A stretch of DNA of 64,000 nucleotides. Origin: Steroidobacter gossypii. Its GTDB lineage: Bacteria; Pseudomonadota; Gammaproteobacteria; Steroidobacterales; Steroidobacteraceae. The notes under the pieces were generated by a model that saw only the letters and a list, made by a program, of their open reading frames with translations, was not told where the DNA came from and ran no database searches. This document shows positions 11,537-27,031 of this stretch, one piece after another. The stretch lies in the NCBI RefSeq assembly GCF_016801985.1, contig NZ_JAEVLS010000003.1:558001-622000 (forward strand), written 5' to 3'. How positions within the stretch are numbered: the first letter of the stretch is position 1; the number at the start of each line of letters is the position of its first letter. Made by a program: the position numbers and the translations under genes.

Positions 11537-12745
11537 CTATCGCTCTCGCTTCGGAGGCTGCAACTGCTCGATTTCCGCGGGGCTGAAACCCAGCGAGTCG
11601 AGGATCTCATGGCTGTGCTCGCCAATGCGGGGCGGAGCCGTGTTCACGCCGGGCGTGTCCTCGCTGAACAGAAATCCTGCGTTGACGATCTTGACCTGCT
11701 CGCGCTCCGGCAAGCCGGGGATGCTGAGGTCAAGTTTCAGCCGGCGCGCTTCGAGCGCAGGCAACGACACCGCCTCGGTGACATTACGAACCATGCCGCA
11801 GGGGATGCCTGCCGCGCTCAGCCTCGACTCCCATTGCTCAGCGGGCGCCTGGTGAAAGACGCCTTCCAACTCCAGGCGCATCTCGGCGGAATGTTTGCGG
11901 CGCAGATCCGGGGTTAGGAAGCGGGCATCGCTCAGCCAATCTTCGCAGCCGACCTCGCGGGCCAGCGTTTCGAATTGCGCCTGCTGCACGACGCCGAGTG
12001 AAATCTGCCGGCCGTCACTGGCGGTGAATACCGCCGACGTGGGTTGACCGCTGTAACCGATGTTTCCTGTGCGCTCGGGCGGATTGCCCGTCACGAGGTA
12101 AGGAACGACGGCGGACGTCATGAACGCCATGCTGGCGTCGAACATCGCCACATCGATGTATTCGCCTCGACGTTCGCGCTGCCGCCGCAGCAGCGCCGCG
12201 AGAATGGCGAAGGCGGCCGTTTGACCGGTGAGCGTATCGACCACCGGAAAGCCCACTCGCGCCGGCGCGTCTCCCGCCGTACCTCCCAACGTCATCATGC
12301 CAGTTGTGGCCTGCACGATGTTGTCGATAGCTGGCCAGTCACGACGGGGACCGCTCTGGCCGTAACCGGAGATGGAGCAGTAGATCAGCTCCGGGCGCAG
12401 CGCGCGCACCGATGTATAGTCGAGACCGAACTTCGCCATCACGCCGGGCCTGAAGTTCTCGACCAGCACGTCGCAGGTGGCGATCAGACGCCGGGCCGCT
12501 TCCTGCGCGAGCGGTTGCTTGAGATCCAGCGTCATGGATTTTTTGCCCGCGTTGACGGCGATGAACGCCGGAGCCATGCCGTCATAGCGCCGATCGTTTC
12601 CATAGCTGCGCATAGTGTCGCCGCGCCCCGGCGCTTCGATCTTGATCACCTCCGCGCCGAGCAGTCGCAGCAGGTGGGTGGCGAACGGCCCTGCCATCAC
12701 ATGGGTGAAGTCGGCGACGCGAATGCCTTCAAGCGGTAGGCTCAT
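11537..12745 (-). CDS. family III CoA-transferase (CaiB/BaiF type)
   Basis: This is a 402-residue single-domain class III CoA-transferase, which moves CoA between carboxylic acids. The N-terminal core shows GIRVADFTHVMAGPFATHLL and LGAEVIKIEAPGRGD, then VLVENFRPGVMAKFGLDY. The catalytic aspartate expected in this family is present at residue 203 in the stretch YIDVAMFDASMAF. It is the last gene of the long minus-strand operon, and its ATG overlaps the stop of the TRAP binding-protein gene (ATGA, 12742-12745). It is the only CoA-transferase unit here with the standard Asp, so it is the best candidate for activating the acid that the TRAP system imports. Substrate specificity cannot be deduced. 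Confidence 0.93.
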   Translation of the reverse strand: MSLPLEGIRVADFTHVMAGPFATHLLRLLGAEVIKIEAPGRGDTMRSYGNDRRYDGMAPAFIAVNAGKKSMTLDLKQPLAQEAARRLIATCDVLVENFRPGVMAKFGLDYTSVRALRPELIYCSISGYGQSGPRRDWPAIDNIVQATTGMMTLGGTAGDAPARVGFPVVDTLTGQTAAFAILAALLRRQRERRGEYIDVAMFDASMAFMTSAVVPYLVTGNPPERTGNIGYSGQPTSAVFTASDGRQISLGVVQQAQFETLAREVGCEDWLSDARFLTPDLRRKHSAEMRLELEGVFHQAPAEQWESRLSAAGIPCGMVRNVTEAVSLPALEARRLKLDLSIPGLPEREQVKIVNAGFLFSEDTPGVNTAPPRIGEHSHEILDSLGFSPAEIEQLQPPKRER

Positions 12746-13782
12746 GTTTCATCTCTGCTGCAGCGGATGCCGGTGTCGTCCTTGACCTGTGCGGCAAGTG
12801 AGCGCGCCAGGCGGTAAGCGGGCATGCCATCGATGGCGAAGCGGGCGAGCTCGCGGGCTCGGACTTCTCCGTCGCGCTCGTATAGCGCGTCGAAGCGCGC
12901 CTGTTGGTCTGATGGCATGTCGTGGAATTCGATGTTGTGCTCGCGGCCGGCCGCCATGCCGGCTTCGTTTGCAACCAACAGCTCCGACGCGAGCGCCTGC
13001 TCCCACACTGCGGTGCTACGCTCGAGCAGATCTCTTTGCGCATCGGTCAACGTGCGCCAGCGACGCTCGCTCATGGCGCGGGCCGCGTAGGCGCCGCGCG
13101 GAATCTTGATGGTGTTGAAGTACTTCGCCACTTCAGCGAAATGCAGCGATCGCAATGTATCGGGCGGCGCGATGACGCCGTCCAGCACGCCCTTGGCCAA
13201 CGCCGAATAGACTTCGCCCATCGGCATGTCGACGGGGTCGGCTCCGAGATTCTCGAGCACGGCGAGCAACTCCGATGGCGCGCGCAGCCGCAGGCCACGC
13301 AGGTCATCCAGGCTATGCACGGGGCGATCGCGAGTAACGATGCCGGGCAGATTTCCCCCTTGCACGGCGAGGATCTTCAGATCGTGCAGCTCTCGCTTGA
13401 ACTGCGGCTCGGCCGCGACCAGGCAACGCCACATCGCGGTCTGTTGCTGGAACGTTTCCAAACCGCCGTAGAATCCGGCCTGCGCCCGGATGAGATGAGC
13501 GCCGCCGCGGGCATAGATGGGTGTGATCAGGCCGATATCGGCAACGCCATGTCGCAGCTCGTGCATGGAGTGCTCGGAGGACAGCAACGAGCCGGACCAG
13601 TACGGTTGGATGTCGATGGCCCCGTTGGATTGTTGCTCGACCCATTGCATCCAGGCGAGGTCGGCACGGCTGAAGGGGTGAGAAGGGCTGAAGGGACTTG
13701 CATAGGTGAGCACCGTCACGCCAGGTGTCGGCTGCGTGCAACCCGCCATACATATAATAAGTAGGGCGAGCAGGGCTCTCAC
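12742..13782 (-). CDS. TRAP transporter substrate-binding protein, DctP family, lipoprotein
   Basis: This is a 346-residue DctP-family solute receptor for a tripartite ATP-independent (TRAP) importer of organic acids. The N-terminus (MRALLALLIICMAGC) is a lipoprotein signal with Cys15 as the likely lipid anchor, less usual than the free periplasmic form. Family features are YWSGSLLSSEHSMHELRHGVADIG and the ligand-site region LRGLRLRAPSELLAVLENLGADPVDMPMGEVYSAL, where an Arg normally binds the substrate carboxylate. Both ends overlap neighbours by ATGA. The membrane subunits lie about 5 kb upstream in the same operon, separated by the enzyme genes, so transport and metabolism are expressed together. 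Confidence 0.9.
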   Translation of the reverse strand: MRALLALLIICMAGCTQPTPGVTVLTYASPFSPSHPFSRADLAWMQWVEQQSNGAIDIQPYWSGSLLSSEHSMHELRHGVADIGLITPIYARGGAHLIRAQAGFYGGLETFQQQTAMWRCLVAAEPQFKRELHDLKILAVQGGNLPGIVTRDRPVHSLDDLRGLRLRAPSELLAVLENLGADPVDMPMGEVYSALAKGVLDGVIAPPDTLRSLHFAEVAKYFNTIKIPRGAYAARAMSERRWRTLTDAQRDLLERSTAVWEQALASELLVANEAGMAAGREHNIEFHDMPSDQQARFDALYERDGEVRARELARFAIDGMPAYRLARSLAAQVKDDTGIRCSRDET

Positions 13783-15068
13783 AGCAGGCCCTCCTGGCGC
13801 AGGAAGCCCGCGACGTGCTCGACCATGCGCTCATGGCTCCAGTCCTTGGCGCTTACCATATCCGCGGACAACGCAAGCGTCGGAATGCCTGCTCGCGCCA
13901 GCGCGTGTTCGGTCAGTTTGGTGCCGGACTGAGACAGTCGATTGTCGGGCGGCACCAGCATGACGGCGGCGTCGATGTCACAGCGATCCGCCTCGCTGAC
14001 CATCCATTCATTCATCCAGGGCGGCAGATGCAGCACTTCGTTCATGGAGCAGATGCGACTGGCCAGTGCGTGCAGCGGGCGGTCGTGCAACTCGCGAATG
14101 TATTGTGGGCCGGCGAAGGGCATGTACATCGACCACACGAACACTGCGCCGTAACGATCTTCCAAGGCGCTGTAGAACCCTGGATCGTGCCACAAGCCGG
14201 CGCCGATCCACATCAGACGCAGACGTTCCCGGACGCCGACGCCGACGCCGTCCGCGATGCGTTGTTTCACTTCGTCGCGAAAGCATCGCGCATGAGCCAC
14301 GGCCCAGGGCGAGCCACGATGCCACTGGGGAATCATGGTGTTGGGCATCTGCTCGGCAATGGAAACGGGGCAGGGCCGGGCGGCGCCAATCATTTGCGCC
14401 GCTTCGGCGATATAACCTTCCTGTTCGTTGATGGCGAGCATCAGCTGCAGGAATTTGTCTTCATCGAACTTGCGGCCAGTGCGATCCTCCAGCAGGGCGA
14501 TCAGCTGGCGCATCTCGGCCACGAGCAGTTCGATGCGACGCTGCTCGAATACTTCTTCCCAACGTTGGTTGGAGTGGCGGAACCACTGCGGGTCCTTGTG
14601 TTGCCAGCCCGGCGCCTCCAGCGCAAAGAACTCACTGCCCAGCGCCGTCGCCCACTGGCTGAAAACGTGCTCGATGCATTCGCAGGTGAGACGCGCGACC
14701 AGCACGGTCGGCTTGGGAAGGCCGCCCCAGGGCGCCACACGGGGATTGTTGTCCAGCGTGCACGCCAGACCCAGCGAGCAATAGCGGCACCGATTGGCCG
14801 GATAGCCGAGATCGCCCAACACCTGATCGTAGTGCTTGGAAAGCTGTTTCGCCGAGATGTACGCGGACCACCACTGATTGGTCACCAGTGGAATGTCCAT
14901 GACGTGGAAGATCTCGTGCGGCGTGTCGGCCTGCGCGATGGCGAAGGGCTCGCCGGCGTCGATCACACGACGCTTCAGATCGGCGACGAAGTCGCGCTGA
15001 TACGCGGTGGCCGCCGACGTGCATTCCAGATCTTTGCGGCTGCGTTGGCCGCCGTTATGTGTGCTCAT
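13779..15068 (-). CDS. 2-hydroxyacyl-CoA dehydratase / benzoyl-CoA reductase-like subunit A
   Basis: This 429-residue protein belongs to the 2-hydroxyacyl-CoA dehydratase family (HgdA/HgdB, FldB/FldC, BcrB/BcrC), whose members bind a [4Fe-4S] cluster and catalyse radical dehydration or ring reduction on CoA thioesters. The N-terminal domain shows HVMDIPLVTNQWWSAYISA. Candidate cluster cysteines are C94, C97 and C103 (RCRYCSLGLAC) plus C129 and C131. The C-terminal helix-strand domain ends AGIPTLALSADMVSAKDWSHE. The third family cysteine, expected in the C-terminal domain, appears as Asn/Arg (PPDNRL). I chose ATG 15068 because it forms an ATGA overlap with the fused CoA-transferase; the open frame upstream to 15122 is that gene's coding region. 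No activator ATPase is adjacent. Confidence 0.8.
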   Translation of the reverse strand: MSTHNGGQRSRKDLECTSAATAYQRDFVADLKRRVIDAGEPFAIAQADTPHEIFHVMDIPLVTNQWWSAYISAKQLSKHYDQVLGDLGYPANRCRYCSLGLACTLDNNPRVAPWGGLPKPTVLVARLTCECIEHVFSQWATALGSEFFALEAPGWQHKDPQWFRHSNQRWEEVFEQRRIELLVAEMRQLIALLEDRTGRKFDEDKFLQLMLAINEQEGYIAEAAQMIGAARPCPVSIAEQMPNTMIPQWHRGSPWAVAHARCFRDEVKQRIADGVGVGVRERLRLMWIGAGLWHDPGFYSALEDRYGAVFVWSMYMPFAGPQYIRELHDRPLHALASRICSMNEVLHLPPWMNEWMVSEADRCDIDAAVMLVPPDNRLSQSGTKLTEHALARAGIPTLALSADMVSAKDWSHERMVEHVAGFLRQEGLL

Positions 15069-17245
15069 CGAAACACTCCGAGCTGTTGCAGCTCGTCGAT
15101 GCGGGCGTCGCTCAGACCGCACAACTCCCGGGCGATCGCGATGCTGTGCTCGCCGATGGAAGGCGCGCGATAGGGCGCTGTGGCGCTGCTCGAGAAGCTG
15201 ATCGGCGTGCGTACATGGCCGAACGTTCCCAGCAGCGGATGATCCAGATCGAGCAGCGCGTGGCGCGCATTGATCTGAGGGTCGCGCTCGATCAAGTCCT
15301 CGATGTCCTGCACGACGCCCGCTGCAATGCCTGCGGCTTGCAGCTGTTCCATCAGTGCGTGCGGGTCGTGTTCACGACACCATGCGCTCAGCGCGACGTT
15401 GGCTGCTTGGGGAGAGGAGGTTGCATCGAGCTTGGCGATTGCGCAAAGGCGCTGCCAGTCTGCTTGCGAGCCGAGCCGGATGGCGACCCACTGGTCATCT
15501 CCGGCGGCGGGATAGACCCCTTGATGAAACGTTCGGGCGTCGTCGTTGCCTTGGCGCGTCGGCCGTTCGCCGCGCGCTGCTGCGACGATGGCGTCGTGCA
15601 TCTGTTGCACACAGATCTCGTACATCGCCGCGTCGATGTGACATCCCTTGCCGGTGCGGCGGCGATAGTCCACGGCCGCGGCGGTCGCGGCCGCCATCAC
15701 ATAGGGAACGATCACATCTCCGTAAGGAACGGCGCCGGGAATGACCGGATTGCGATCCGGCCAGCCGGTGAGAAACGTTCGGCCCGAGAGGGCGGCGCCC
15801 GTGCCATCCACGCCCCACGATTCCGCCAGCGGTCCGGTCTGTCCATAGACGCTGCCGGACACCATGATCAACCCCGGGTGACGTTTCTGCAGCAACGCAT
15901 AGTCGAGGCCGAGCTTGGCCATGGTGCCGGGCGAGAAATTCTCCACCACGATGTCCGCCCAATCGAGCAGCGGCTCGAGCACCTCGCGGCTTTGCGGCAG
16001 CTTCAGATCGAGGGCGAGGCTGCGCTTCGATGTATTCAGATGCGCGAACCAGGGCTTGTCATCGAAGCTGTCCGCGCGTGAGGCGCTCACTTGGACGTCG
16101 ATGCGAGAAAGGCAGGGACGGCTGCGGGTTTCGACTTTGATGATTTCGCAGCCCAGGTCCCCAAGGACTTTGGTGGTGATCGAGCCCACCAATGCCCAGG
16201 AGAAATCGAGCACCCGCAAGCCCTGCAGTGGGCCGGGACGCCTACTCGTGGATGTGGCCGGGCGCACCGATGCGCCGGCTTCGCCTTCGATCATGGCGAC
16301 AAAGCGCGAAGGTATGCGCTGTCCTGCATTGTTTCTTGTCCAGAAGTCGCGCGCCTGAAGATGAGGATCCGCAAGGACGTCGCCAGGCTCGGCGACCACA
16401 GTGGCGTTGATCCCTCGGCGCCGACCTTCGGTCGCGATGTCGTGTCGCGTGCGCGTAGAGAAAAAGGCCTCGATGGCTTGCTCCCACTCGCGGCGTGTTT
16501 CTGGAGCGAGCGTGGAGCGGTTGTATTTCGACCAGTCGACGCCTTGCAGCGGATTGGGCAGTCCGGCCTCGTCGATCCAATCGCTCAGGGCCTGATTGGC
16601 GGGCGCGCCGAAGCGGCCCGTCATCAGCGTGTGGAAACAAAATCCGTCAGCGAGCGGCCAGATGCAGCGAACGGTGGCGCGCCCGTAGTTCAACGCGCCG
16701 CCCACTCGATGCAGTTTGCGACGATCGAACTGCCAGACCAGCACGCCGTTGACGTTGCGTGAGAACGCGACTTCCTGAACCGAGACGTCGACGTGTTGGC
16801 CGCGGCCGGTATTCGCCAGATCGACCCACGCCGCCATCGCGCCGGCAGCCGCCACCATATCCGCGTGAAACCAGCAGGCGTCCAGCGCTTCCTTCACTGG
16901 GGGCCGGTCCGGATCCCCTGTCACCCGAAGCGTTCCCCCCATGGCCGATGCAATCAACTCTCCGCCGTGCCACGCGGCTCGGGGGCCTTCGCTGCCGAAG
17001 GTTGTCACCGAGACATGAATCAATCGCGGATTCATTTGCTCGATTCGCGCTCTCGAGAACCCAGCCGTTTGCAGGGCGGGCAACCCGAGGCTCTCGATCA
17101 GAAACTGCGCGTCAGGCAGCTCGTTCGCGAGCGATGAAACATCCACGGCTCGAACGTCGGCCCCAAACGAGGCGAGCAGACGCGCGAGCGCACTGTCAGC
17201 TGTGCCATCCAGTGCCAGCACACGCACATCTTGCAACGGCTTCAT
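15065..17245 (-). CDS. tandem (double-domain) family III CoA-transferase
   Basis: This is a 726-residue protein made of two class III CoA-transferase units. The N-terminal half (about 1-335) is divergent: FGADVRAVD, RLIHVSVTTFGSEGPRAAW, GRGQHVDVSVQEVAFS. The C-terminal half (about 338-726) is canonical: LQGLRVLDFSWALVGS, LGCEIIKVETRSRP, VVENFSPGTMAKLGLDY, GKGCHIDAAMYEICVQQ. At the position of the family's catalytic Asp both halves carry Glu (E158 and E543). ATG 17245 has GGAG five bases upstream and overlaps the stop of a duplicated mini-ORF; an earlier in-frame start at 17296 would read through the repeat. Class III enzymes work as interlocked dimers, so this fusion may form its own pseudo-dimer. 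Its substrate is probably the acid handled by the dehydratase-like pair. Confidence 0.9.
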   Translation of the reverse strand: MKPLQDVRVLALDGTADSALARLLASFGADVRAVDVSSLANELPDAQFLIESLGLPALQTAGFSRARIEQMNPRLIHVSVTTFGSEGPRAAWHGGELIASAMGGTLRVTGDPDRPPVKEALDACWFHADMVAAAGAMAAWVDLANTGRGQHVDVSVQEVAFSRNVNGVLVWQFDRRKLHRVGGALNYGRATVRCIWPLADGFCFHTLMTGRFGAPANQALSDWIDEAGLPNPLQGVDWSKYNRSTLAPETRREWEQAIEAFFSTRTRHDIATEGRRRGINATVVAEPGDVLADPHLQARDFWTRNNAGQRIPSRFVAMIEGEAGASVRPATSTSRRPGPLQGLRVLDFSWALVGSITTKVLGDLGCEIIKVETRSRPCLSRIDVQVSASRADSFDDKPWFAHLNTSKRSLALDLKLPQSREVLEPLLDWADIVVENFSPGTMAKLGLDYALLQKRHPGLIMVSGSVYGQTGPLAESWGVDGTGAALSGRTFLTGWPDRNPVIPGAVPYGDVIVPYVMAAATAAAVDYRRRTGKGCHIDAAMYEICVQQMHDAIVAAARGERPTRQGNDDARTFHQGVYPAAGDDQWVAIRLGSQADWQRLCAIAKLDATSSPQAANVALSAWCREHDPHALMEQLQAAGIAAGVVQDIEDLIERDPQINARHALLDLDHPLLGTFGHVRTPISFSSSATAPYRAPSIGEHSIAIARELCGLSDARIDELQQLGVFR

Positions 17246-17292
17246 GCAATCTCCAGCGCGGCTCGGAACTGCGAATCTTGCACTGGCTTCAT
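17242..17292 (-). CDS. 16-codon coupled mini-ORF (repeat copy 2)
   Basis: This short frame reads MKPVQDSQFRAALEIA and stops at TGA. It begins at an ATGA overlap with mini-ORF 1 and ends at an ATGA overlap with the fused CoA-transferase. It carries its own GGAG site. The first residues copy the start of the CoA-transferase (MKPLQD) and the last copy the end of the upstream dehydratase subunit (FRNALEVA). It is most likely a by-product of duplication that still passes ribosomes along the chain. Confidence 0.35.
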   Translation of the reverse strand: MKPVQDSQFRAALEIA

Positions 17293-17339
17293 GCAATCTC
17301 CAGCGCGGCTCGGAGCTGCGAATCTTGCATTGGCTTCAT
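17246..17339. repeat. two tandem 47-bp units duplicating a stop/start junction
   Basis: Bases 17246-17292 and 17293-17339 are identical except at two positions (45 of 47). Partial copies flank them: the left flank is the true start of the CoA-transferase gene, and the right flank is the true end of the dehydratase-like B gene. Each unit therefore holds the last codons of one gene, a GGAG ribosome site, the ATGA overlap and the first codons of the next. Confidence 0.95.
17289..17339 (-). CDS. 16-codon coupled mini-ORF (repeat copy 1)
   Basis: This short frame reads MKPMQDSQLRAALEIA and stops at TGA. Its ATG overlaps the stop of the dehydratase-like B gene (17336-17339), and its stop overlaps the start of the second mini-ORF (17289-17292). 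A GGAGG-like site lies in the end of the upstream gene. It arose from duplication of the gene junction. Whether the peptide is stable or useful is unknown. Confidence 0.35.
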   Translation of the reverse strand: MKPMQDSQLRAALEIA

Positions 17340-18517
17340 GCAACCTCCAGTGCGTTTCGGAACTGCGCGATCTGAGTGAGGGCTGCTGCGCTCAATGCTT
17401 GCGGCTGCGATGTGAGCATGAGCGTGGGGAGGCCGGCGTCGCGGAGAGCGCGCTCGATGCGGGGCGCTTCCCAGGCGAGGCCGGTGTCGGTTGCGACCAT
17501 CCAGACGATGACGGCGTCGGCGCGCAGCGCCTTGGCGACCTTGACGATCTCGGCAGGCGATTGCAGGAGCTCGCGCGCCACGGCCGTTTGTTGATAACAA
17601 CGTCGCGCCACCGCCTCGATGCCGCGAGATGCCGATAAACCGCTGACGTGGCTCGGCGATCCAACGTCGACGCCTGAAGCGGCAGGGCGTGCGCGCGAGG
17701 AGATTCCGCGGCCGGCATGCCGTGCGTGCGAGGACATTTCCGTTGCCGTCGATTCAGCTGAAACAAATGCCTCGTTGATCTCTCCGACGACAACCACATC
17801 ATCGTTTTCAATCGCCGCGTGCAACTCATCATCGGCCGGCACACTGCCCACAAGCAGCACGCGCTTGCGCGGCTTCATGGTGGCGGCCGCGGCGAGCCAC
17901 TCGCGCAAGGAGGCGTCGAATGCCTCGGACCAGTCGGCCCGAGCCGCGCGAATGATTCGATGCGCGAGCCGCCCTGAAGGAACCGCGGCCGCACCGCGCA
18001 ACTTAGCAAGCGCGCCGAGCAGATCGAACCGAGCCGATACTCGCTGAATCGCCGTATCAATGAGCCCTGCATCGGCGCCGAGCGCCGTGGCCAGCGAATG
18101 CGTCGACTCGACGGTATATTCCACGCTCGTCCCGCGTCCAATACGCGCCAGGTCATAGAGCAAAGGCTGCGGTCCCTTGCACTCGCCAAAGCGCTGCAAC
18201 TCACAGAGGTAGTAATACAATCTCTGCGCGCTATCGTCGCTGCGCGAGAAGATGACAGCTGACAGCGAATCGAGCCTGCCGCTCAACCACCACTGAGCAA
18301 TCGTCCGACTCTGCGCCGAGAAGCTATTCTCCAGATAGCGGTCAGCCAGCACAGTGTCGTCTGGAGCCGCCAGCGAGGCGAGCTGCACAGGCGCCGCGCC
18401 AGCGGCGAGAATGAGCTCGACGGGAACATCCCACCCGAGATAGCCAATCGCCCGCCGCGATCCCACGCCAGCGAGCGGCGCGCTCAACACCCGATCCAAC
18501 AGCGCCGGTAAACTCAT
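17336..18517 (-). CDS. 2-hydroxyacyl-CoA dehydratase-like subunit B (cluster cysteines not seen)
   Basis: This 393-residue protein is a diverged second member of the 2-hydroxyacyl-CoA dehydratase family. The family pattern is visible in RAIGYLGWDVPVELILAAGAAPVQL, in LYYYLCELQRFGECKGPQPLLYDLARI and in the C-terminal DAVIVWMVATDTGLAWEAPRIERALRDAGLPTLML. The segment where family members have a cluster cysteine reads ENSFSAQSRT, and only three scattered Cys occur in the whole protein, so it probably does not hold a normal [4Fe-4S] cluster. ATG 18517 forms an ATGA overlap with the TRAP permease gene; the longer open frame to 19225 is a shadow of that gene. With subunit A it likely forms a heterodimer in which only A binds iron-sulfur. 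Confidence 0.75.
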   Translation of the reverse strand: MSLPALLDRVLSAPLAGVGSRRAIGYLGWDVPVELILAAGAAPVQLASLAAPDDTVLADRYLENSFSAQSRTIAQWWLSGRLDSLSAVIFSRSDDSAQRLYYYLCELQRFGECKGPQPLLYDLARIGRGTSVEYTVESTHSLATALGADAGLIDTAIQRVSARFDLLGALAKLRGAAAVPSGRLAHRIIRAARADWSEAFDASLREWLAAAATMKPRKRVLLVGSVPADDELHAAIENDDVVVVGEINEAFVSAESTATEMSSHARHAGRGISSRARPAASGVDVGSPSHVSGLSASRGIEAVARRCYQQTAVARELLQSPAEIVKVAKALRADAVIVWMVATDTGLAWEAPRIERALRDAGLPTLMLTSQPQALSAAALTQIAQFRNALEVA

Positions 18518-19806
18518 TGATGCAACCACCCCGGCAGCGCCAGCGCCAGCGCCGGCACGGCAATCAACAACGACAGATGCAACAGGTCGGCCGCCAGAAA
18601 CGGCACCACACCTTTGAAGATGCGTCCCAGCGGAACATCCTTGGCGATGCCCTGAATCACGTACAGGTTGATGCCGATCGGCGGATGCACGAAGCCGATC
18701 TCCATGGTGCGCACCAGATAGATGCCGAACCAGATCGGCGACAACCCCAGATTGGTCACGATGGGCAGCAGAATGGGCGTGGTGAGCAGCATCAGCGCCA
18801 GCCCGTCGAGCACCGAGCCGAGCAGCAACAACAGCACGGTCATGATGACGATGGCCAGCAACTGCCCGCCTGGCAGTCCCTCCATGAAGGCGGCCACCTG
18901 ATCCGCAAGCCCGGTGTAACTCATGAAGACGGCGAAGATCAGCGCGCCGATGACCACGACATAGATCATGCCGGTCGTGCGCAGCGTCTGCGCCAGCGCT
19001 TCCTGCAGCGAGGCGCGATTCAACTTCCGCCGCCAAGCACACAATAGAAGCGCCCCGGTCGCACCGACGGATGCCGCCTCGGTCGGCGTGAACCAGCCGA
19101 ATGCGATGCCGCCCAACACCACCAGGATCAGCCCGCCAAGATCGAGAATTCGAAACAACGCCTCGCGCCGCTCGGGCCAGGGCGCGCGCGCCGTCGCCGG
19201 TCCGATGGATGGACGCCATCGGCACAACAGCACGATGGTGATGACGTAGAACAGCGCCTGCGACAATCCCGGGATGATCGCCGCCGTGAACAGCTTGCCG
19301 ATGGATTGCTCAGCAAGAATGCCGAACACGATCAGCGCGCCTGAGGGCGGAATGATGGATCCCAGCGTGCCGCCGGCGGCGATCGCTCCCGTCGCCAACG
19401 CATCGGAATAGCCGCGCTTGCGCATCTCCGGCAAGCCGATCAATCCGATCGTGGCCGCGGTCGCAAGGCTCGATCCACTGATCGCGCCGAAGCCGGCGCA
19501 ACCGGCGACGGACGCAATCGCCAGTCCACCGCGACGATGTCCGACCATGCGAGCCGCCGCTTCGAAGAAGTCGCGACTTGCGCCGGCCGCGAAGCACAGG
19601 TGCGCCATGAATAGAAACATCGGCAGCACGCCGAGCTCATAGCGCGTGATCGTCTCGAACAGCACCACGCCAGATTTGATGATGGCCGGCTCCGGCCCGA
19701 GCAGCAGGATCAGGCCCACCATTCCGACCACGCCCATGGCGACGCCAATGGGCACGCCCAGCGTCAGCAGGACGAGTAGGGCGAGGACGCCGAGCACGCC
19801 GTTCAT
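18514..19806 (-). CDS. TRAP transporter large permease, DctM family
   Basis: This is the 430-residue large inner-membrane subunit of a TRAP transporter, the sodium-coupled channel component. It has about twelve to thirteen hydrophobic segments. Family motifs include GVPIGVAMGVVGMVGL near the start, AGFGAISGSSLATAATIG, GAIAAGGTLGSIIPPSGALIVFG and, near the end, PPIGINLYVIQGIAKDVP. ATG 19806 overlaps the stop of the small permease gene (ATGA); the GTG- or ATG-like starts further upstream lie inside that gene. It works with DctQ just upstream and with the DctP lipoprotein further down the operon. The carried acid is unknown. Confidence 0.93.
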   Translation of the reverse strand: MNGVLGVLALLVLLTLGVPIGVAMGVVGMVGLILLLGPEPAIIKSGVVLFETITRYELGVLPMFLFMAHLCFAAGASRDFFEAAARMVGHRRGGLAIASVAGCAGFGAISGSSLATAATIGLIGLPEMRKRGYSDALATGAIAAGGTLGSIIPPSGALIVFGILAEQSIGKLFTAAIIPGLSQALFYVITIVLLCRWRPSIGPATARAPWPERREALFRILDLGGLILVVLGGIAFGWFTPTEAASVGATGALLLCAWRRKLNRASLQEALAQTLRTTGMIYVVVIGALIFAVFMSYTGLADQVAAFMEGLPGGQLLAIVIMTVLLLLLGSVLDGLALMLLTTPILLPIVTNLGLSPIWFGIYLVRTMEIGFVHPPIGINLYVIQGIAKDVPLGRIFKGVVPFLAADLLHLSLLIAVPALALALPGWLHQ

Positions 19807-20288
19807 GCGCGACCCCGCAGCGAGCGCCACATGTCACGCAGAAACACGAATGCGATGGCGACCGCGGCGAGAAACGACACGATGCGCAACGGACGAAAGG
19901 GGATGTGCAACAGCTCGCTTTGCTCGTAGTCGTTCCATGTCTCGAGGAGAAGCCACAGCGCGCCTGCGCTCAGGCCGATAAAGAACAACGCGGACAACAG
20001 ATGGGCGAACGCGTGCAGATACTGACGGGCCCGCTCGCTGACGCGCGTCGTCAGCAACGTCACGGTCGCGTGGCCGTTATTCATGGTGGCGGACAGCATG
20101 GCAGCCGAGGCCATCAACAGGATGCAGGCCTGAATGAGTTCCAATGCGCCGAGCAGCGGGATGCCTGCATGACGGCCCAGCACCGCGAGCGTCTCGACGC
20201 CCATTGCCAATACCAGGCCCGCGGCGCCGATGTAGAACAACGGGCCACGCGTCTGGCCCTTGCCGGAAGCGTCGTTCAGCTCAGCCAC
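19803..20288 (-). CDS. TRAP transporter small permease, DctQ family
   Basis: This is the 161-residue small membrane subunit of the TRAP transporter. Four hydrophobic segments are visible: FYIGAAGLVLAMGVETLAVLG, LIQACILLMASAAML, LLSALFFIGLSAGALWLLL and VSFLAAVAIAFVFL. This is the normal DctQ layout. The ATG at 20288 lies 13 bases inside the end of the CapA-like gene, and the stop overlaps the DctM start by ATGA, so all three are coupled. DctQ proteins scaffold the large permease and help dock the binding protein. Confidence 0.88.
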   Translation of the reverse strand: MAELNDASGKGQTRGPLFYIGAAGLVLAMGVETLAVLGRHAGIPLLGALELIQACILLMASAAMLSATMNNGHATVTLLTTRVSERARQYLHAFAHLLSALFFIGLSAGALWLLLETWNDYEQSELLHIPFRPLRIVSFLAAVAIAFVFLRDMWRSLRGRA

Positions 20289-21370
20289 ACGCCCTCGCTT
20301 GTGATTTGCATGGTCAGTGGCGGCAAGCCTGCCTCGACGCCAATGGCTTGAACGTAGTCGGCGATACGCTGAGCGGCGTCGGGTGCGATCCGCGGCCGGC
20401 CGGGAGGATCGACGTGTACAGGAATGAATCCCGCTCGAACATTGCCGTGCGCATCGATTTGCAGTCGACCGAGTAGCGCGTTAACCGCTTCGGGATGGAA
20501 TGGCGCGAGCACATACGCAGGATCCGGCTCGAAGCCAAACAACTCCTTGCGCTTGCGAGCCCAGGCGGCGCGCTCCGGGGATGCCTGATCCGGGCTCAAG
20601 GCACTTGTGACGACGCAACCATTTCCTAGTCCGTGGAAAATAGGAACGCCTCGATGGAACTCGATGCCTCGAATGATGTGGGCATGATGACCTACGACCA
20701 CATCGCAGCCGGCGTCGACGGCTGCGTGCGCGAGTGGACGTTCATACGGCGCGAGCCTGGCGCGGGTGTGCACGATCCCTTTGTGGAATGCAACGACGAC
20801 GAGATCGGCGCGCGCCTTCGCGGCCTGGATATCTTCTGCAAGCATTGTGAGCGAGGCCGGATCGATGCGCTCGAGCGCAGCCGCGGGGCGGATGGGGCCG
20901 CCGTCCACAGGCTCGACGCGAATATATGCACATCCGGCGTGATCCGTGCCTGCCCACGAACTTTCCGGCCCCACACAGTTGTAGCTCAGAATGGCGATGC
21001 GCTTGCCGCCGGAATTTACGATCGCAGGCTTACGCGCTTCTGCGAGCGTCGCGCCCGCGCCGGTGTATGCGATCCCCGCATCCCTCAATCCGGCGACGGT
21101 GTCCGCGATGCCGGTCGCCCCCAGATCCGCAATGTGATTTCCCGCCAGCGTCACGGCCCCAATGCCGGCCCGCGCAAGTGCCGGCAGATGCGCCGGATCG
21201 GCCCCGGGCGCAGGCACGTCATCGCGAACCTCTTCGACATGCGCGGTGTGGGGCACTTCCAGATGACCGATGGCGAGATCGGCGCTGCGCAGCGCCGGGG
21301 CGATGCCAGCGAGCCAGTGGTCTGGCTGCGGCTCATCGAGAATCAGGTCGCCGGTGAAGATCAGCTCCAT
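20276..21370 (-). CDS. CapA-family metallophosphatase-like protein
   Basis: This is a 364-residue protein of the CapA (poly-gamma-glutamate synthesis) family, which has a calcineurin-like metal-binding fold. Visible motifs are LIFTGDLILDEP at the N-terminus (metal Asp), GHLEVP, VTLAGNHIADLGATGI (the GNH motif), VVVAFHKGIVH and GHHAHIIRGIEFHRG. I chose ATG 21370, which places the first strand at the N-terminus and follows a GGGGG stretch; in-frame GTG 21403 and ATG 21394 are possible. No signal peptide is seen, so it probably acts in the cytoplasm. It is the first gene of the operon and overlaps DctQ by 13 bases, so it may hydrolyse a phosphorylated or amide-linked intermediate rather than make capsule. 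Confidence 0.82.
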   Translation of the reverse strand: MELIFTGDLILDEPQPDHWLAGIAPALRSADLAIGHLEVPHTAHVEEVRDDVPAPGADPAHLPALARAGIGAVTLAGNHIADLGATGIADTVAGLRDAGIAYTGAGATLAEARKPAIVNSGGKRIAILSYNCVGPESSWAGTDHAGCAYIRVEPVDGGPIRPAAALERIDPASLTMLAEDIQAAKARADLVVVAFHKGIVHTRARLAPYERPLAHAAVDAGCDVVVGHHAHIIRGIEFHRGVPIFHGLGNGCVVTSALSPDQASPERAAWARKRKELFGFEPDPAYVLAPFHPEAVNALLGRLQIDAHGNVRAGFIPVHVDPPGRPRIAPDAAQRIADYVQAIGVEAGLPPLTMQITSEGVWLS

Positions 21371-21408
21371 GCCGCGCCCCCGGGCATCGCCCATCCGTAA
21401 CACACTCG

Positions 21409-21438
21409 TTGATTGTCGACCAAACTATCGATCATATT
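21409..21438 (+). promoter_or_regulatory. candidate promoter/operator of the GntR gene
   Basis: TTGATT (21409-21414) and CATATT (21433-21438) are 18 bases apart, a weak sigma-70 match pointing at the GntR gene. Inside lies ATTGTCGACCAAA, a partly symmetric site of the kind bound by FCD-type GntR regulators. The region 21371-21472 is the only space between the regulator and the divergent operon. Confidence 0.3.
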
Positions 21439-21472: not shown

Positions 21473-22174
21473 ATGCCAGCCAAGACTGACAGCCGACCCG
21501 TAACCAAAGCACGCGCCGCCGCTCGAGCCGAGCCGCTGGCCGCGACCGAAGTGATGGACTGGATCCGAGAACGGATTCGCCGTGGCAGCTTCGTGCCTGG
21601 CCAACGCCTGGTGGAGGCGGACATCATGCGCGAGCTGCCGACCGCCACGCGCAGTCGCGTGCGCGAGGCGTTACAGCGGTTGGCGAGCGAAGGGCTGGTC
21701 ACCATCGAGGAATTCCGGGGCGCGTCAGTCAAACGTTTCACTCACGATGACTTGCGGCAGATGTATCGCGCGCGCATGGCGCTGGAAGGCATGGCTGCGG
21801 CGGACTTCGCGGCCGCCGACAAGCCCGAGCTGAAGCGGCGCCTGCAGAAAATCCAGACTGAATTGAACGGCATCGAGAACAGCGTCGACCACGAGCGCTT
21901 TGCGCGCCTCAATGAAGAATGGCATCGGCTGATCATCGAGGGCTCGGGCAACGAGTTCATTCGCATGTTTCTGGAGCGGCTGCGCATCCCCATCTACCGG
22001 CTGCTGATCGCGACCTTCTACAGCGCGCGGCGCATCGACAACGCAAACGCCGGCCATCGCAAGATCACCGAAGCCATCGTCAACGGCCGCGCCAGGGACG
22101 CCGAGCGGCTGATGCGCGAACATATCGCTGAAGGCCTGGAAACGCTGTCGGCGATGGATCTGGATATCAAATAG
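21473..22174 (+). CDS. GntR-family regulator, FadR/FCD subfamily
   Basis: This is a 233-residue regulator. The N-terminal winged helix (about residues 22-90) contains IRRGSFVPGQRLVEADIMREL, then SRVREALQRLASEGLVTIEEFRGASVK. The C-terminal all-helical FCD domain (about 95-230) shows MYRARMALEGMAA, FARLNEEWHRLIIEGSGN and AGHRKITEAIVNGRARDAERLMREHIAE, with Asn/His residues at the usual metal or ligand positions. ATG 21473 is the first start after the divergent promoter region. It is transcribed away from the CapA/TRAP/CoA-transferase operon across about 100 bases, so it very likely represses that operon until the imported acid or its CoA ester binds. Confidence 0.9.
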   Translation: MPAKTDSRPVTKARAAARAEPLAATEVMDWIRERIRRGSFVPGQRLVEADIMRELPTATRSRVREALQRLASEGLVTIEEFRGASVKRFTHDDLRQMYRARMALEGMAAADFAAADKPELKRRLQKIQTELNGIENSVDHERFARLNEEWHRLIIEGSGNEFIRMFLERLRIPIYRLLIATFYSARRIDNANAGHRKITEAIVNGRARDAERLMREHIAEGLETLSAMDLDIK

Positions 22175-22176
22175 CC

Positions 22177-23988
22177 TCACTCGCCGCGCGCTCCTTCGGC
22201 AAATCGGCCGACGATGGGCAACGTCAGCTGGGAGGCGTGCTCTCGATCGAAATGGATGCTGAGGGTGGGCGGCGGATCGAACGTCACATTGCGCGAGCGC
22301 TGGCGCGGATCTGCTCCGGCCACCGTCAAGCGCAGGCGATGGCCGGCCTTGATGATAGTGGAGGTCGGCAACAGATCCAGTCGCATCCTGGACGGCTCGC
22401 CCGGCACGAGCGGTTGTGCATCGGCTCGCTCGCCGCGGTGATAGGGCAGGCCCATGTAGTTGCGGTACGGTGGTCGCTGCTCGCTTCGATGCGAAGCGCG
22501 CAGACGACCGTGAGTCACGATGCTCACTGCGCCGCTTGGATCGATGTCTTCGAGGTACACGAACAGGTCGGCGTCGTTGCGATCGGCGGAGATCCAGAGA
22601 TCCGCGATGGGATGGCCGGCGATGTGCGTGTCAGCGCCCAGCGGAGCGGTGGCGTAGCTGAGCCCGTGCTTGTCCACCACGCAGGGCCACATCAGGAAGT
22701 AAAGATCGGTCTGCCGACTGCACTTTGGATCGTAGTCGACCACGAACCGATCGGGTGAGGTGGACTTGCCATCACGCTTGCTGCTGAGCTGTCCTGCAAC
22801 GCCGGGCGCCGCGCCGCCTCCCAGGTGCAATGTTTGATTTCGAGCGCTGGCCGGCGGCCAACGATCAGTGCTGCTCCACTCCTGACCGGCGGAGGCATTG
22901 AGGGTGCGATAGTAGATGGGCGCTTCACGCTGCCAGCCATTGTCGATCTTTTTCAGGAAATGATCGAAGAAGCGCAGCAGCTCGGTGGCCATGGGGAAGT
23001 CGCCCACCTCACAATGTCCCCATTCGCCCATCCACAGCTTGCGGGGATTGCTCAGGTTGTTATATGCGAGCGTGGCCTCGAAGCTGCCTTCGTCCATCCA
23101 GTTGCCCCAGATGAAGATGCCCACGCCGGAGCGCTCGATCTGCCTCGCGTAGGTTGCGACGCTGGCCTCCTGCCAGAAAGGCACGCCGAGCAGCGGAGAC
23201 ACATCGTCGCGGTAGCGCATGCCTGCCCACAGCTCGGCCATCGGCGTGCCTTTGGCGTGCTCGGCGATTGCGGCCTGCGCAAGCTTGCCGTCGGTGTCCG
23301 ACTCGACCGGGACGACGCCCTGGCCGAAATCCTGACCGGGATTTTCCGGTCGCGTGTTGAATTGCGCAGTGATGCCGCCGCGACTGACGAAGCCATATTT
23401 GTCGAAATCGGTGCAGCCGGGCGCGATGGCCTTCAGATGCGGCGACATCATGGTGGCGGCATGCCACGTCGTGCCGCCCAGATAGGAACATCCGGCTACC
23501 CCGATCGCACCCGTGCTCCAGGGCTGCCTGGCGAACCATTCGGTCATCTCATATGCATCGCGCGCTTCGGTGCGGTCCTGGAAGCCGCGGCGCGCGCCGA
23601 ACGAGGCGCCTCGTCCACGCGTGTCGACGGCGGCGAGCACGTAGCCGTGTTCGAGCAGCGGCATGAGATTCAGCCGCTCCAGCGGATTGACGATGTGGCC
23701 CTTCGAATCCGTGTAGGCGCGGCGATACGGCGTATGGATCCAGACGACCGGCAGTTTCTCATCGACGGCGCGGCCGTTGACCGAAGGGCGATAGATATCC
23801 ACCGCAAGCTTCACGCCGTCGGACATCGCAACGTATTGCGAGGCCTTTTGCCACTCGCTGAAACGCGCTTCAGAGTAGCCCCGGTACACGCCGGGGCGCG
23901 ACTCTTTGGCTTCGGCGGCGATGCCTGGCTGCAGGGGCAACAGGCACAGGCTGGTCGCCAACGTTGCACGGATGAGCGAGGTCAGCAC
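22177..23988 (-). CDS. CocE/NonD-family serine hydrolase, exported
   Basis: This is a 603-residue alpha/beta hydrolase of the X-Pro dipeptidyl-peptidase (S15)/CocE family, which cleaves esters or peptide bonds. The signal peptide is LIRATLATSLCLLPLQPGIAA. The nucleophile elbow is GVAGCSYLGG with Ser168, the likely catalytic His is in MGEWGHCEVGDF, and the C-terminal jelly-roll domain begins around LWISADRNDADLFVYLEDIDP. It starts at GTG 23988, four bases after the stop of the TonB receptor, with GGTGGT upstream, so receptor and hydrolase form an operon. A sensible reading is import of an ester or peptide across the outer membrane followed by periplasmic hydrolysis. The substrate is unknown. 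Confidence 0.9.
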   Translation of the reverse strand: MLTSLIRATLATSLCLLPLQPGIAAEAKESRPGVYRGYSEARFSEWQKASQYVAMSDGVKLAVDIYRPSVNGRAVDEKLPVVWIHTPYRRAYTDSKGHIVNPLERLNLMPLLEHGYVLAAVDTRGRGASFGARRGFQDRTEARDAYEMTEWFARQPWSTGAIGVAGCSYLGGTTWHAATMMSPHLKAIAPGCTDFDKYGFVSRGGITAQFNTRPENPGQDFGQGVVPVESDTDGKLAQAAIAEHAKGTPMAELWAGMRYRDDVSPLLGVPFWQEASVATYARQIERSGVGIFIWGNWMDEGSFEATLAYNNLSNPRKLWMGEWGHCEVGDFPMATELLRFFDHFLKKIDNGWQREAPIYYRTLNASAGQEWSSTDRWPPASARNQTLHLGGGAAPGVAGQLSSKRDGKSTSPDRFVVDYDPKCSRQTDLYFLMWPCVVDKHGLSYATAPLGADTHIAGHPIADLWISADRNDADLFVYLEDIDPSGAVSIVTHGRLRASHRSEQRPPYRNYMGLPYHRGERADAQPLVPGEPSRMRLDLLPTSTIIKAGHRLRLTVAGADPRQRSRNVTFDPPPTLSIHFDREHASQLTLPIVGRFAEGARGE

Positions 23989-23992
23989 CGAA

Positions 23993-26662
23993 TCACCACC
24001 GTTTGGAAACCACGAAAGAAACGAACCGGCCGAGCGGCGAGACGTTCTGATTGTCCCAGGACACCATGCCGTTCAACACCACCGGCGGATCCTCATCGAG
24101 CAGGTTCTGGCCATTGATCGACAGGCTGACGCCGCTCAGCGCGCCGCGTTCGTCACCGAAATCGTAGGTGACGGCCGCGTCCACTGTTTTGTAATCGTCC
24201 ACCTCCACGTTGGGCGTCACCGCCGTATTGCGATAGCTGTCGATGTAGTTCAGATACAGATTCGCGGCCCAGCCGTTCATGCGCCAACCCGCCGAGGCGC
24301 GGGCGCGCAGGTCCACCGGATTGGAGAAGGTATCCAGCACATCGACGAAGGGCAGACCAGGTGCGATGGAGCGCGTCAGGTCGAGGATTTTCGCGACATC
24401 GAGACCGACGCGCCAGTCGCCCAACGAAGTGGGAACGCTGTAGCCCAGGTTCAGATCGACGCCCTGTTGTTTCATGCTGCCGAGATTGGCGCGGCGGCCG
24501 TCGATGATGGCGTTGATGTTGGTGACTGGCTCGGCCGGGCTCTGCAGATCCGGATTCGCCAGGAACTCCGCAACCAGCGCATTGAAGGCCGCTGTGCCCG
24601 CGACATCGCTGGCGGGTGGCCGGCGAATCACATAGGGGCCGTACACCGATGCGTTGGTGAGCGCCGTGTTGAGCACCACGTCGATGCGATCGGAGTAGTC
24701 GACATCGTAGTAGGTGACCGACGCCGTCAGGCCCTGCAGCGCGCCCATCGGGCGCCAGTCGAGGCCGACCGACCAGGTGGTCGCTTCTTCGGGCTGCAAA
24801 GTGGCGCGGCCGCCGTTGTGATAGATGCCGCGAGTCACGCCGCCCGGCCCGTTCGGATCGGTCAGGTTCTGGATGAAGATGTTGTGGATCTGCTCGCTGG
24901 TGTCGACCAGCGAGGGCGCGCGGAACGAGGTGCCATACGTGGCGCGTGCGGTCAGCGATTCGATCGGTCGCCAGATCAGGCCGATCTTCGGATCGGTGGT
25001 CGAGCCGAAGTCGGAATATTCCTCGCGCCGCGCCGCCACCGACAGGCTGAGGCTGTGTATGCCCGGCACGGCTTGCTCCTCGCTCACGATGGGCACGAAC
25101 ACTTCGCCAAACAACGAGGTGTTGTGGCGGCGGTTCAAGATGTTCTTGGTGGTGATCTCGCCCGAGGGCAGAACGTTGTTCGCCTTGAGCGTCTGGCGGA
25201 ACTCGTTGTCGTGCCGCTCCACGCCGATGGCCACTCGCAGGTCGCCGCCCGGCAGTTGCCACAGCGGACCGTCGGCCTTCAACGCCAGATCGCGCGCTTC
25301 GCTGGTGCCCCAGGTGTCGCGGTTGGCGATGATGAGATCGACCAGCGCGGGATTGTTGGTGACATTGAAGCTGCCGTCGCCGAATGGATTGAAAGCGGTG
25401 GCCGGGTCGCTGCTGGCGAGCGCCGCGTTCAGCGCGGCGCCATTGGTGATCGCGCCTCGGCGCTGGAAGCCGCGGTTCTTGCTGAGGTTGGCATACCCTT
25501 CGATGCGCCAGTCGTTCCCCATGTCGAAGCCGGCGCCGATGGCATTCTGTTGCGCATTTTCATAGCCCTCCAGACGCGGGTCTGCGTCTTCGGCGAGGAA
25601 ACGATATTCCACGTTGACGAAGGTCGCCGAGGGCAGCGCCGCCGGCGCCACGAACCAGGGATTCGTGTTCGGCACACGCAATTGCCCGGACGCCGGCGCC
25701 ACGCGCTCATCGAACTCGCGCTCCGAATACCAGCCTTGATACCAGACGTCGAAGCGGCCGAACTCCTGGCGCGCGTCCACGAAGAAGCTGTCGCGCTCCT
25801 GATTGGGTAGCAGATCGGCAAACCTTCCTTCATCGAATCGGTTCGCGGCGCCCGCAGTGAGTTGGTCAGGGCTGAGTCCGGTGCCCGGACCGGCAGGCAG
25901 GGGATAGCGCGTGGTCCCAGAAACAATGTTGCCCGGGCTGGCGAGGTTCGGTCGTGCGTCGGATCCGCCTCGCGCGCGACGGTCCTGCGAGGCGAAGGCT
26001 CGATCGGCGCCGGACAGGTTGTCGCGCTCATTGTGCTCATATGCGGCGAACACACTGCCGCTGTCCCAGGTGAACCCGAAGTTCTGACTGATGATCTTCT
26101 GGCTCGTGCCATCCGCCACGCCATAGCGCGCCAGGGTCTCCGCGCCATCGAAGTCATTGCGGGTGATGATATTGACGACGCCCGCCACCGCGTCGGAGCC
26201 GTAAATGGCGGAGGCGCCATCCACGACGACCTCCAATCGCTCGATGGCGGCCGAGGCAATCACGTTCGGATCGTAGAGCGACTTGATGATGCCGGCAGGG
26301 GCAAGGCGTCGACCGTTGATGAGCAGCAGAGTAGCTTCGTTGCCAATGCCTCGCAGATTGATGCCCGAGACGCGCGTCGCATTGGCCGCGCCATCCTGCG
26401 CGCCGCCGAGGCGGCTTTCATCGGCGCCGAGGTTCAACACCTGCGGCAAAGCGCGAGCCAGATCGCTGCTGGTGGCGAGGCCGGTCGAGACGAGCTCCTC
26501 GCGATCCATCGCAATCACCGGCGCTCCCGCGCTCGCCACGCCACGGATGCTCGTGCCCGTGACGACCACCTGTTCCACGACTTGCTCGGTATTTACTTCC
26601 TGCGCCGTCGCCGTACTCACCGCGACCAATGCACAAGCGCCAAATAAACCTGGACGACGCAT
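23993..26662 (-). CDS. TonB-dependent outer-membrane receptor
   Basis: This is an 889-residue TonB-dependent receptor of the long class. ATG 26662 follows an AGGGGGGGAT ribosome site and starts a short signal peptide (LFGACALVAVSTATAQ). The frame is open upstream to 26923, but that part is leader. The TonB-box region is EQVVEQVVVTGTSIRG. The plug shows ALPQVLNLG, INLRGIGNEATLLLINGRRLAPAG, and AIERLEVVVDGASAIYGSDAVAGVVNIITR. The barrel ends in SFVVSKRW, with terminal Trp in place of Phe. The form resembles receptors paired with secreted hydrolases, and here a CocE-type hydrolase follows four bases later. Confidence 0.93.
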   Translation of the reverse strand: MRRPGLFGACALVAVSTATAQEVNTEQVVEQVVVTGTSIRGVASAGAPVIAMDREELVSTGLATSSDLARALPQVLNLGADESRLGGAQDGAANATRVSGINLRGIGNEATLLLINGRRLAPAGIIKSLYDPNVIASAAIERLEVVVDGASAIYGSDAVAGVVNIITRNDFDGAETLARYGVADGTSQKIISQNFGFTWDSGSVFAAYEHNERDNLSGADRAFASQDRRARGGSDARPNLASPGNIVSGTTRYPLPAGPGTGLSPDQLTAGAANRFDEGRFADLLPNQERDSFFVDARQEFGRFDVWYQGWYSEREFDERVAPASGQLRVPNTNPWFVAPAALPSATFVNVEYRFLAEDADPRLEGYENAQQNAIGAGFDMGNDWRIEGYANLSKNRGFQRRGAITNGAALNAALASSDPATAFNPFGDGSFNVTNNPALVDLIIANRDTWGTSEARDLALKADGPLWQLPGGDLRVAIGVERHDNEFRQTLKANNVLPSGEITTKNILNRRHNTSLFGEVFVPIVSEEQAVPGIHSLSLSVAARREEYSDFGSTTDPKIGLIWRPIESLTARATYGTSFRAPSLVDTSEQIHNIFIQNLTDPNGPGGVTRGIYHNGGRATLQPEEATTWSVGLDWRPMGALQGLTASVTYYDVDYSDRIDVVLNTALTNASVYGPYVIRRPPASDVAGTAAFNALVAEFLANPDLQSPAEPVTNINAIIDGRRANLGSMKQQGVDLNLGYSVPTSLGDWRVGLDVAKILDLTRSIAPGLPFVDVLDTFSNPVDLRARASAGWRMNGWAANLYLNYIDSYRNTAVTPNVEVDDYKTVDAAVTYDFGDERGALSGVSLSINGQNLLDEDPPVVLNGMVSWDNQNVSPLGRFVSFVVSKRW

Positions 26663-26720
26663 GGATCCCCCCCTTGCAGTCCCGCACCCGGGCGCAGCCG
26701 GGCTGTTATGGTGTGGCGGC

Positions 26721-26749
26721 AGACTAGGAAGTGCTGACGAAATTGTCAA
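26721..26749 (-). promoter_or_regulatory. sigma-70 promoter of the receptor/hydrolase operon
   Basis: On the minus strand a perfect -35 TTGACA (26744-26749) is followed after 17 bases by TAGTCT (26721-26726). The predicted transcript starts near 26714, leaving a leader of about 50 bases before ATG 26662. The -35 lies inside the symmetric element ATTGT-CA-ACAAT (26742-26753), which could serve as an operator. Confidence 0.6.
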
Positions 26750-27031
26750 CAATCCGCGCGGGCGAATTTCGCCTTTATATGCAATGAGTTTGGGGCCATA
26801 AGGCGCGGATATGCCGCTTGCACGCGGGGCGAGCCGCGGGCACGAAGGTCGGGTTCGTGGTGCCGCCAGCGTCAGAGATCGAGTACAAGCGAACGCCACC
26901 TTGGATCGAGTCCACCTCGGCATCTTCGTCGCTGCACTCAGCGAGCGTCACGAAACACGGCCGCCATTTTTTTCGTCGGTCGCATGCAGTCGTGGACGGC
27001 GTGCGTATCGATCACGAGTGAGAATTGAAAA

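Follow-up and report, generated by a model that had tools for sequence, protein, structure and literature searches.

The benzoyl-coenzyme A (CoA) reductases (BCR) and 2-hydroxyacyl-CoA dehydratases (HAD) are known as oxygen-sensitive radical enzymes. Here we describe an eight-gene operon of Steroidobacter gossypii that encodes two proteins related to this family, HGD-D A and HGD-D B (A and B hereafter), together with a tripartite ATP-independent periplasmic (TRAP) transporter, two CoA-transferase genes and a CapA-like protein. The operon lies in a window of 64,000 nucleotides, the whole stretch of DNA that was analysed (contig NZ_JAEVLS010000003.1, positions 558,001 to 622,000), and all positions below are those of the window. 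The A/B pair shares fold and subunit pairing with the radical BCR/HAD enzymes but lacks, in whole or in part, the features that define them. On the sequence comparisons presented here, the operon probably serves as a whole in the catabolism of an organic acid bound in an ester or amide, and A/B would represent a cluster-reduced, non-radical branch of the BCR/HAD fold.

Among described systems, the class I benzoyl-CoA reductases BzdNO and MbdON resemble A/B in the pairing of alpha and beta folds and in having paralogous subunits. A shares two of their three alpha ligand cysteines but has lost the third, along with Glu65, whereas B is without the cluster ligand set, no activator of the BzdPQ kind was found, and the operon itself differs. 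(R)-2-hydroxyisocaproyl-CoA dehydratase (HadBC) and the HGD and phenyllactyl-CoA dehydratases have a heterodimer fold in common with A/B, and the HadBC type has a CaiB-type CoA-transferase as partner, as in this operon. A/B does not have the same ligands, however, no activase was found, and the partners here are TRAP, CapA, CocE and TonB proteins. For enzymes of the HadBC, HGD and phenyllactyl-CoA type, dehydratase and activase are both described as required (PMC11574389). A radical mechanism for the BCR/HAD enzymes, and a family scheme leading from two double cubanes to fewer clusters, are outlined in PMC11971306, where the 4-thiouridine desulfidase TudS appears as a non-radical offshoot of the family. 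TudS is a precedent for a protein of this fold turned to non-radical chemistry, but unlike A/B it is single-domain, keeps a [4Fe-5S] cluster and acts on a thionucleotide. The sequence-only reading of this DNA had stated that no described pathway has this gene set. Identification with a known pathway was attempted and abandoned, as no paper on the set was found in the open-access literature searched; within that literature the statement stands, and the gene set may be undescribed.

Results

Fold and cluster ligands of A and B

The eight packed genes are on the minus strand and run from 21394 to 11537:

20276..21394, minus strand: CapA-like protein (PGA_cap; PF09587, 2.7e-54), with alternative starts at 21403 (GTG) and 21370 (ATG)
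19803..20288, minus strand: DctQ, TRAP small permease (PF04290), overlapping CapA by 13 nt
18514..19806, minus strand: DctM, TRAP large permease (PF06808, 4.3e-100), ATGA overlap
17336..18517, minus strand: HGD-D B, beta-subunit fold without the canonical cluster cysteines (PF06050, 1.1e-18)
15065..17245, minus strand: CoAT2, double CaiB/type III CoA-transferase, a BbsE/BbsF-like fusion (PF02515)
13779..15068, minus strand: HGD-D A, alpha-subunit fold (PF06050, 1.9e-42)
12742..13782, minus strand: DctP, TRAP solute-binding protein, predicted lipoprotein (PF03480), GTGA overlap
11537..12745, minus strand: CoAT1, CaiB/type III CoA-transferase (PF02515)

Pfam confirmed the families of all eight genes and of a divergent GntR/FCD gene, and the order, strand, coordinates and families given by the sequence-only reading were right. 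A and B were the only HGD-D genes found in the genome.

AlphaFold2 models had a mean predicted local distance difference test score (pLDDT) of 87 for A (46-row alignment) and 89 for B (33-row alignment). The best PDB matches were BzdO, MbdO and HadB for A, and HadC, DCCP and BzdN for B. As modelled, A and B have the alpha/beta architecture of the benzoyl-CoA reductases and 2-hydroxyacyl-CoA dehydratases, and gene adjacency and the B-A fusions described below appear to back their pairing.

The active-site cluster of BzdO is liganded by Cys95, Cys128 and Cys380, with Glu65 by the cluster water, as given in PMC11971306. Profile alignment of A to canonical alpha subunits (361 columns, probability 99.9) placed the three cysteine columns on C94, C129 and N376 and the invariant glutamate column on Q65; two of the three cluster cysteines are kept and the third position is asparagine. 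Throughout a 76-row alignment of A sequences, position 376 is never cysteine (67 N, 5 S, 1 M, 1 D and 2 gaps) and the catalytic position 65 is never glutamate (75 Q, 1 T). As a yardstick we took canonical pairs from Sphingopyxis, Azoarcus and a Rhizobium plasmid, which are beside or near activase genes, and from a family relative, genome G261; all three cysteines and the glutamate are retained in 4/4 of these alphas.

By our own reading of the profile alignment, the canonical beta cysteine columns fall on S67, D95 and D344 of B, and across 33 B sequences there is no cysteine at or within two residues of these three ligand positions. B has 0/3 of the beta-cluster ligands, against all three in 4/4 canonical betas. 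Aspartate occupies position 95 in 33/33 sequences and D or E position 344, also in 33/33; the two acidic residues may now serve as a metal or proton site. B is weakly constrained (26–65% identity among relatives). Few proteins of the cluster are as well conserved as A, in which many polar and tryptophan residues are invariant.

Relatives of A without the cysteines

More distant relatives of A, 37–49% identical, include seven intact proteins (L091, L097 and L120–L124) that have no cysteine at positions 94, 97, 129 or 131; L125 also has none there, and carries one in-frame stop. The Cys-less proteins retain most of the Trp-rich signature, and cysteines are present elsewhere in the chain. One Cys-less relative is encoded on a plasmid of Rhizobium sp. 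SSA_523. CoA-transferase genes are found near six of the seven intact loci (L091, L097, L120, L122, L123 and L124), DctQ, DctM and DctP near three (L091, L122 and L124) and CapA near L120 and L122, while L121 shows only B and A. The neighbours of L125 are CoA-transferases, DctM and DctP. Four relatives (L091, L120, L122 and L124) have fused B-A proteins with two HGD-D stretches, and the N-terminal part of the L091 fusion matches B of the window (25% over 289 residues, 3e-8). These fusions argue for B and A acting as a single enzyme. A tree of 32 rows (18 Cys-form, 8 Cys-less and 6 canonical) joins the Cys-less relatives to A with support of 100/99, and a very long branch divides them from the canonical alphas. 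Most simply read, these sequences mean that the A branch can do without the radical cofactor.

Search for an activator

The activator model TIGR00241 recognises 4/4 canonical activases tested. It found no match in 34 of the 35 A-bearing genomes, that of S. gossypii among them, and none in 11 further genomes, 10 of which have an A relative. The one A-bearing genome with a match is G261, which has a separate benzoyl-CoA-reductase-like set with activators on the same contig, about 11 kb from the cluster (L112/L113, G261:C101:60000-99999).

Recurrence of the gene set

A scan of genome contigs for A found 67 loci (L023–L089), in which A is 66–94% identical. Synteny was counted over the 49 with 6.9 kb or more upstream and 3.4 kb or more downstream of A, leaving out 18 shorter loci. 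The eight genes stand together around A in 41/49 loci, or 39/49 by a stricter nearest-copy ordering, and the synteny search that the sequence-only reading had suggested as a check supports its single unit. This recurrence rules out the TRAP and enzyme genes as chance neighbours. A relative of the CocE/NonD hydrolase adjoins the cluster in 39/49 loci and a TonB receptor relative lies directly upstream of it in 36/49; since both belong to large families, the evidence here is adjacency and not similarity. A GntR relative within 4.5 kb upstream was found in 22/49 loci and is less constant than the eight genes. The unit of eight genes first read from the sequence was sound but too small, as the hydrolase and the receptor often recur with it.

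The synteny spans the Steroidobacteraceae, Sphingomonadales and Caulobacterales. Peristeroidobacter agariperforans and Steroidobacter agaridevorans carry A at 94% identity, and the other hosts include many Novosphingobium, Aurantiacibacter, Croceibacterium, Sphingosinicella, Asticcacaulis and Phenylobacterium. The hosts are soil and water bacteria, many of them in genera regarded as aerobic, and some relatives of Steroidobacter are denitrifiers. In the order of S. gossypii, 15/296 genomes match A at an expect value (E) of 1e-10, counting its own genome and G269, a genome of the same genus whose match is only 24% identical and is a canonical-looking protein. The order of a Novosphingobium genome gave a match in 13/296 genomes at E 1e-40, and a phylum-wide sample in 4/398, S. 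gossypii included. This low prevalence suggests that the gene set is an accessory island, and plasmids of Novosphingobium and Croceicoccus carry it as well. In annotated plasmid records the A relatives are labelled '2-hydroxyacyl-CoA dehydratase family protein', a label that is probably misleading for the A branch.

CoA-transferases, transporter and CapA-like protein

The nearest solved chain to CoAT2 by sequence is the succinyl-CoA:(R)-benzylsuccinate CoA-transferase BbsEF (9fn0). The C-terminal half of CoAT2 has the catalytic aspartate (D510) and the N-terminal half has none, in 8/8 sequences examined; BbsE and BbsF are likewise split, one without and one with the catalytic Asp. Unlike BbsEF, CoAT2 is fused in one chain, and no benzylsuccinate beta-oxidation genes are among the eight; at L091 the two halves are separate genes. 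In CoAT1 the catalytic aspartate, D170, is present in at least 97% of 70 sequences.

The TRAP set is complete by family (DctP, DctQ and DctM by Pfam) and its members are ordinary DctPQM proteins, but here DctP is a predicted lipoprotein and the TRAP genes are interleaved with those of the enzymes. The DctP lipobox cysteine C15 and the arginines R165 and R167 are identical in at least 97% of 63 sequences, and we take one of the two arginines to be the carboxylate-binding Arg of TRAP DctP proteins. The nearest solved relatives of DctP are 4n6d, 4nap and 4pgn; some of these presumably bind aromatic ligands, which we did not use as evidence.

The CapA-like protein has no evident signal peptide. 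Its residues D16, H44, E46, N86, H87, H204, H209, H237 and H239 are identical in at least 97% of 54 sequences. Solved relatives carry the name 'poly-gamma-glutamate synthesis protein', and the best NCBIfam match is the lasso-peptide epimerase MslH, at 106.7 of 700 bits and far under the cut-off.

Gene junctions and flanking genes

Between and beside the eight genes are the following features:

17245..17339, minus strand: two tandem 47-bp repeats in the B/CoAT2 spacer, read from the sequence as ATGA-linked micro open reading frames (micro-ORFs; MKPxQDSQxRAALEIA)
21473..22174, plus strand: divergent GntR/FCD regulator (PF00392 and PF07729)
22177..23988, minus strand: CocE/NonD-type hydrolase (PF02129 and PF08530), recurrent partner
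23993..26923, minus strand: TonB-dependent receptor (PF00593 and PF07715), recurrent partner

Five of the seven operon junctions are 4-nt overlaps: ATGA at DctQ/DctM, DctM/B, CoAT2/A and DctP/CoAT1, and GTGA at A/DctP. The CapA/DctQ junction is a 13-nt overlap (20276–20288), given a DctQ start at GTG 20288. B and CoAT2 do not overlap; the B stop is at 17336 and the CoAT2 start at 17245, with about 90 bases between. All junctions except one of 13 bases had at first been read as ATGA overlaps, which holds for the 13-base overlap and four others but not for the GTGA of A/DctP or the B/CoAT2 spacer. This spacer consists of a tandemly duplicated 47-bp unit at the start of CoAT2 and yields two micro-ORFs of 16 codons, each coupled to the next start through ATGA. 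Because these ATGA-linked micro-ORFs fill the spacer, translational coupling may persist there. The same junction is a plain ATGA overlap in L023, and in L024 it has a dissimilar-looking spacer that is likewise readable as an ATGA-linked micro-ORF.

The divergent GntR/FCD regulator heads the operon as originally read. Between its gene and CapA there is a near-palindrome, TTGGTCGACAA, at 21413–21423, and GGTTGACAAT-like sequences resembling it occur in intergenic regions of L023, L024, L031 and L034. The near-palindrome is a candidate operator for the regulator.

The CocE/NonD hydrolase has an N-terminal signal sequence, as read from its sequence, and its nearest solved relatives are a CocE/NonD hydrolase and cocaine esterase. 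Other flanking genes vary by locus and include MmgE/PrpD, tannase/feruloyl esterase, aldehyde dehydrogenase, hydroxycinnamoyl-CoA hydratase/lyase and glucuronate isomerase; the neighbouring esterases, MmgE/PrpD and hydroxycinnamoyl-CoA hydratase/lyase point weakly to plant esters. A cytochrome P450 gene at 6974–8179 has relatives in 7/72 related loci, with a 72% identical copy beside the fused Cys-less form in L091. Naming the substrate from this P450 was tried and given up, the solved relatives being too mixed. The ORF at 4483–6198 (571 aa) has no Pfam match; by position, unaligned, it appears to match a family in 18/72 related loci, one member of which has CxxCH motifs. Further away, 47004–51137 encodes a hybrid two-component sensor of 1377 aa with a Reg_prop propeller, HisKA, HATPase and two receiver-domain stretches.

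Discussion

The recurrence of the eight genes with the hydrolase and TonB partners suggests a route that begins with ester import and periplasmic hydrolysis and leads through acid uptake and CoA transfer to chemistry on the acyl-CoA. The TonB receptor would carry an acid conjugate across the outer membrane, and the exported CocE/NonD hydrolase would release the acid in the periplasm, where the DctP lipoprotein with DctQM could take it up. The CaiB-type transferases, the BbsE/BbsF-like fusion and the single-domain enzyme, would form the CoA thioester of the acid, which the A/B heterodimer would convert, with the CapA-like metalloprotein presumably acting before or after that step. Synteny in three lineages and B-A fusions in four relatives bear out the proposal, made from the sequence alone, of one packed unit in which uptake and CoA activation lead towards one acyl-CoA. 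The reductive or radical chemistry proposed along with it is not supported: the defining cysteines, the catalytic glutamate and the activator proved absent or only partly present, and the four main cysteines of A do not occur in seven intact relatives. The missing alpha ligand, glutamate, beta ligands and activator, taken with these relatives, make a non-radical, heterolytic reaction on the acyl-CoA most likely. Going by the residues, that reaction is most likely non-reductive, which is to say an elimination, a C-C or C-O lyase reaction or an isomerisation. B, without cluster ligands, may be mainly a partner or scaffold. The metal site of A in this clade, if it has one, would be an altered one and might be ligated by cysteines throughout; several relatives of A probably have no metal site.

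The identity of A/B as a radical dehydratase or benzoyl-CoA reductase was rejected on the alpha ligand, glutamate, beta-ligand and activator tests. In a version with ATP-dependent radical catalysis, of the dehydratase or benzoyl-CoA-type reductase kind, and an activator encoded elsewhere, this identity draws on the fold and subunit pairing shared with BzdNO and HadBC, on C94 and C129, which occupy two of the ligand positions, and on a CaiB-type CoA-transferase near A/B, as in two canonical loci. With the third ligand cysteine and the catalytic glutamate in 0/76 A sequences, 0/3 ligand cysteines in B, TIGR00241 unmatched in nearly all A-bearing genomes, seven intact Cys-less relatives and many hosts in genera regarded as aerobic, we consider it highly improbable. 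A scaffold role must also be weighed, in which A/B only binds or organises the CoA thioester and the chemistry is left to the CoA-transferases, through a racemase or isomerase activity, and to the CapA-like protein. The loss of ligands from both subunits, the weak constraint on B, the racemases and isomerases among CaiB relatives and the epimerase as best match of the CapA-like protein would all fit, but the conservation of A across 67 loci, with its many invariant polar and tryptophan residues, is that expected of a catalyst, and such a role seems improbable.

Several observations weigh against a cluster-reduced, non-radical A/B. C94, C97, C103, C129 and C131 are kept in 73–74 of the 76 A sequences; with these cysteines near-invariant in close relatives a metal site in A is likely, and A in this clade has very probably retained a metal or an Fe-S cluster, so far as conservation can tell. 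Redox chemistry by A is, on the same residues, possible. The distant relative L090 retains cysteine at 94, 97, 129 and 131, and the scan behind the 67 loci used six peptide patterns, one of them with cysteines, and may favour Cys-bearing relatives. PF01869 scored over its cut-off in 7/35 A-bearing genomes (L025 and G219 in this count being apparently the same genome), six of them without a TIGR00241 match; three genomes that hold Cys-less relatives (G647, G927 and G928) also passed it. Genome G269, the eleventh of the further genomes searched for an activator, has a canonical-looking HadBC-like pair (L092, G269:C47) with neither a TIGR00241 match nor a PF01869 match over the cut-off, and for this reason the absence of an activator is not diagnostic alone. 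The kept cysteines lend themselves to an A with a fully Cys-ligated cluster (C94, C97, C129 and C131, perhaps C103) that carries out oxygen-tolerant redox or Lewis-acid chemistry with another electron donor; in the profile alignment, C94 and C129 coincide with two cluster ligands of BzdO. Against this stand the seven intact relatives without cysteine at 94, 97, 129 and 131, and the lack of any electron-transfer protein among the eight operon genes by Pfam, and we regard it as unlikely.

We return to A/B as a cluster-reduced, non-radical branch of the BCR/HAD fold. More tentatively, and at somewhat less than an even chance, A/B would stand at the cluster-poor extreme of the BCR/HAD family (cluster-free in some relatives), reached by stepwise loss of Fe-S sub-clusters, and would carry out an undescribed acyl-CoA reaction in aerobes. 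A branch in which every beta ligand and one alpha ligand (in some members also the other two) are gone, while the fold, the pairing and the CoA-transferases persist, would complete the published scheme of cluster loss and would give the BCR/HAD fold a new job in oxic habitats. With transporter, activating enzymes and candidate enzyme in one gene cluster, the question of its chemistry is testable. If this reading is true, A/B and its TRAP, CoA-transferase, CapA, CocE and TonB partners would form a new aerobic route for ester-linked acids from plants or microbes.

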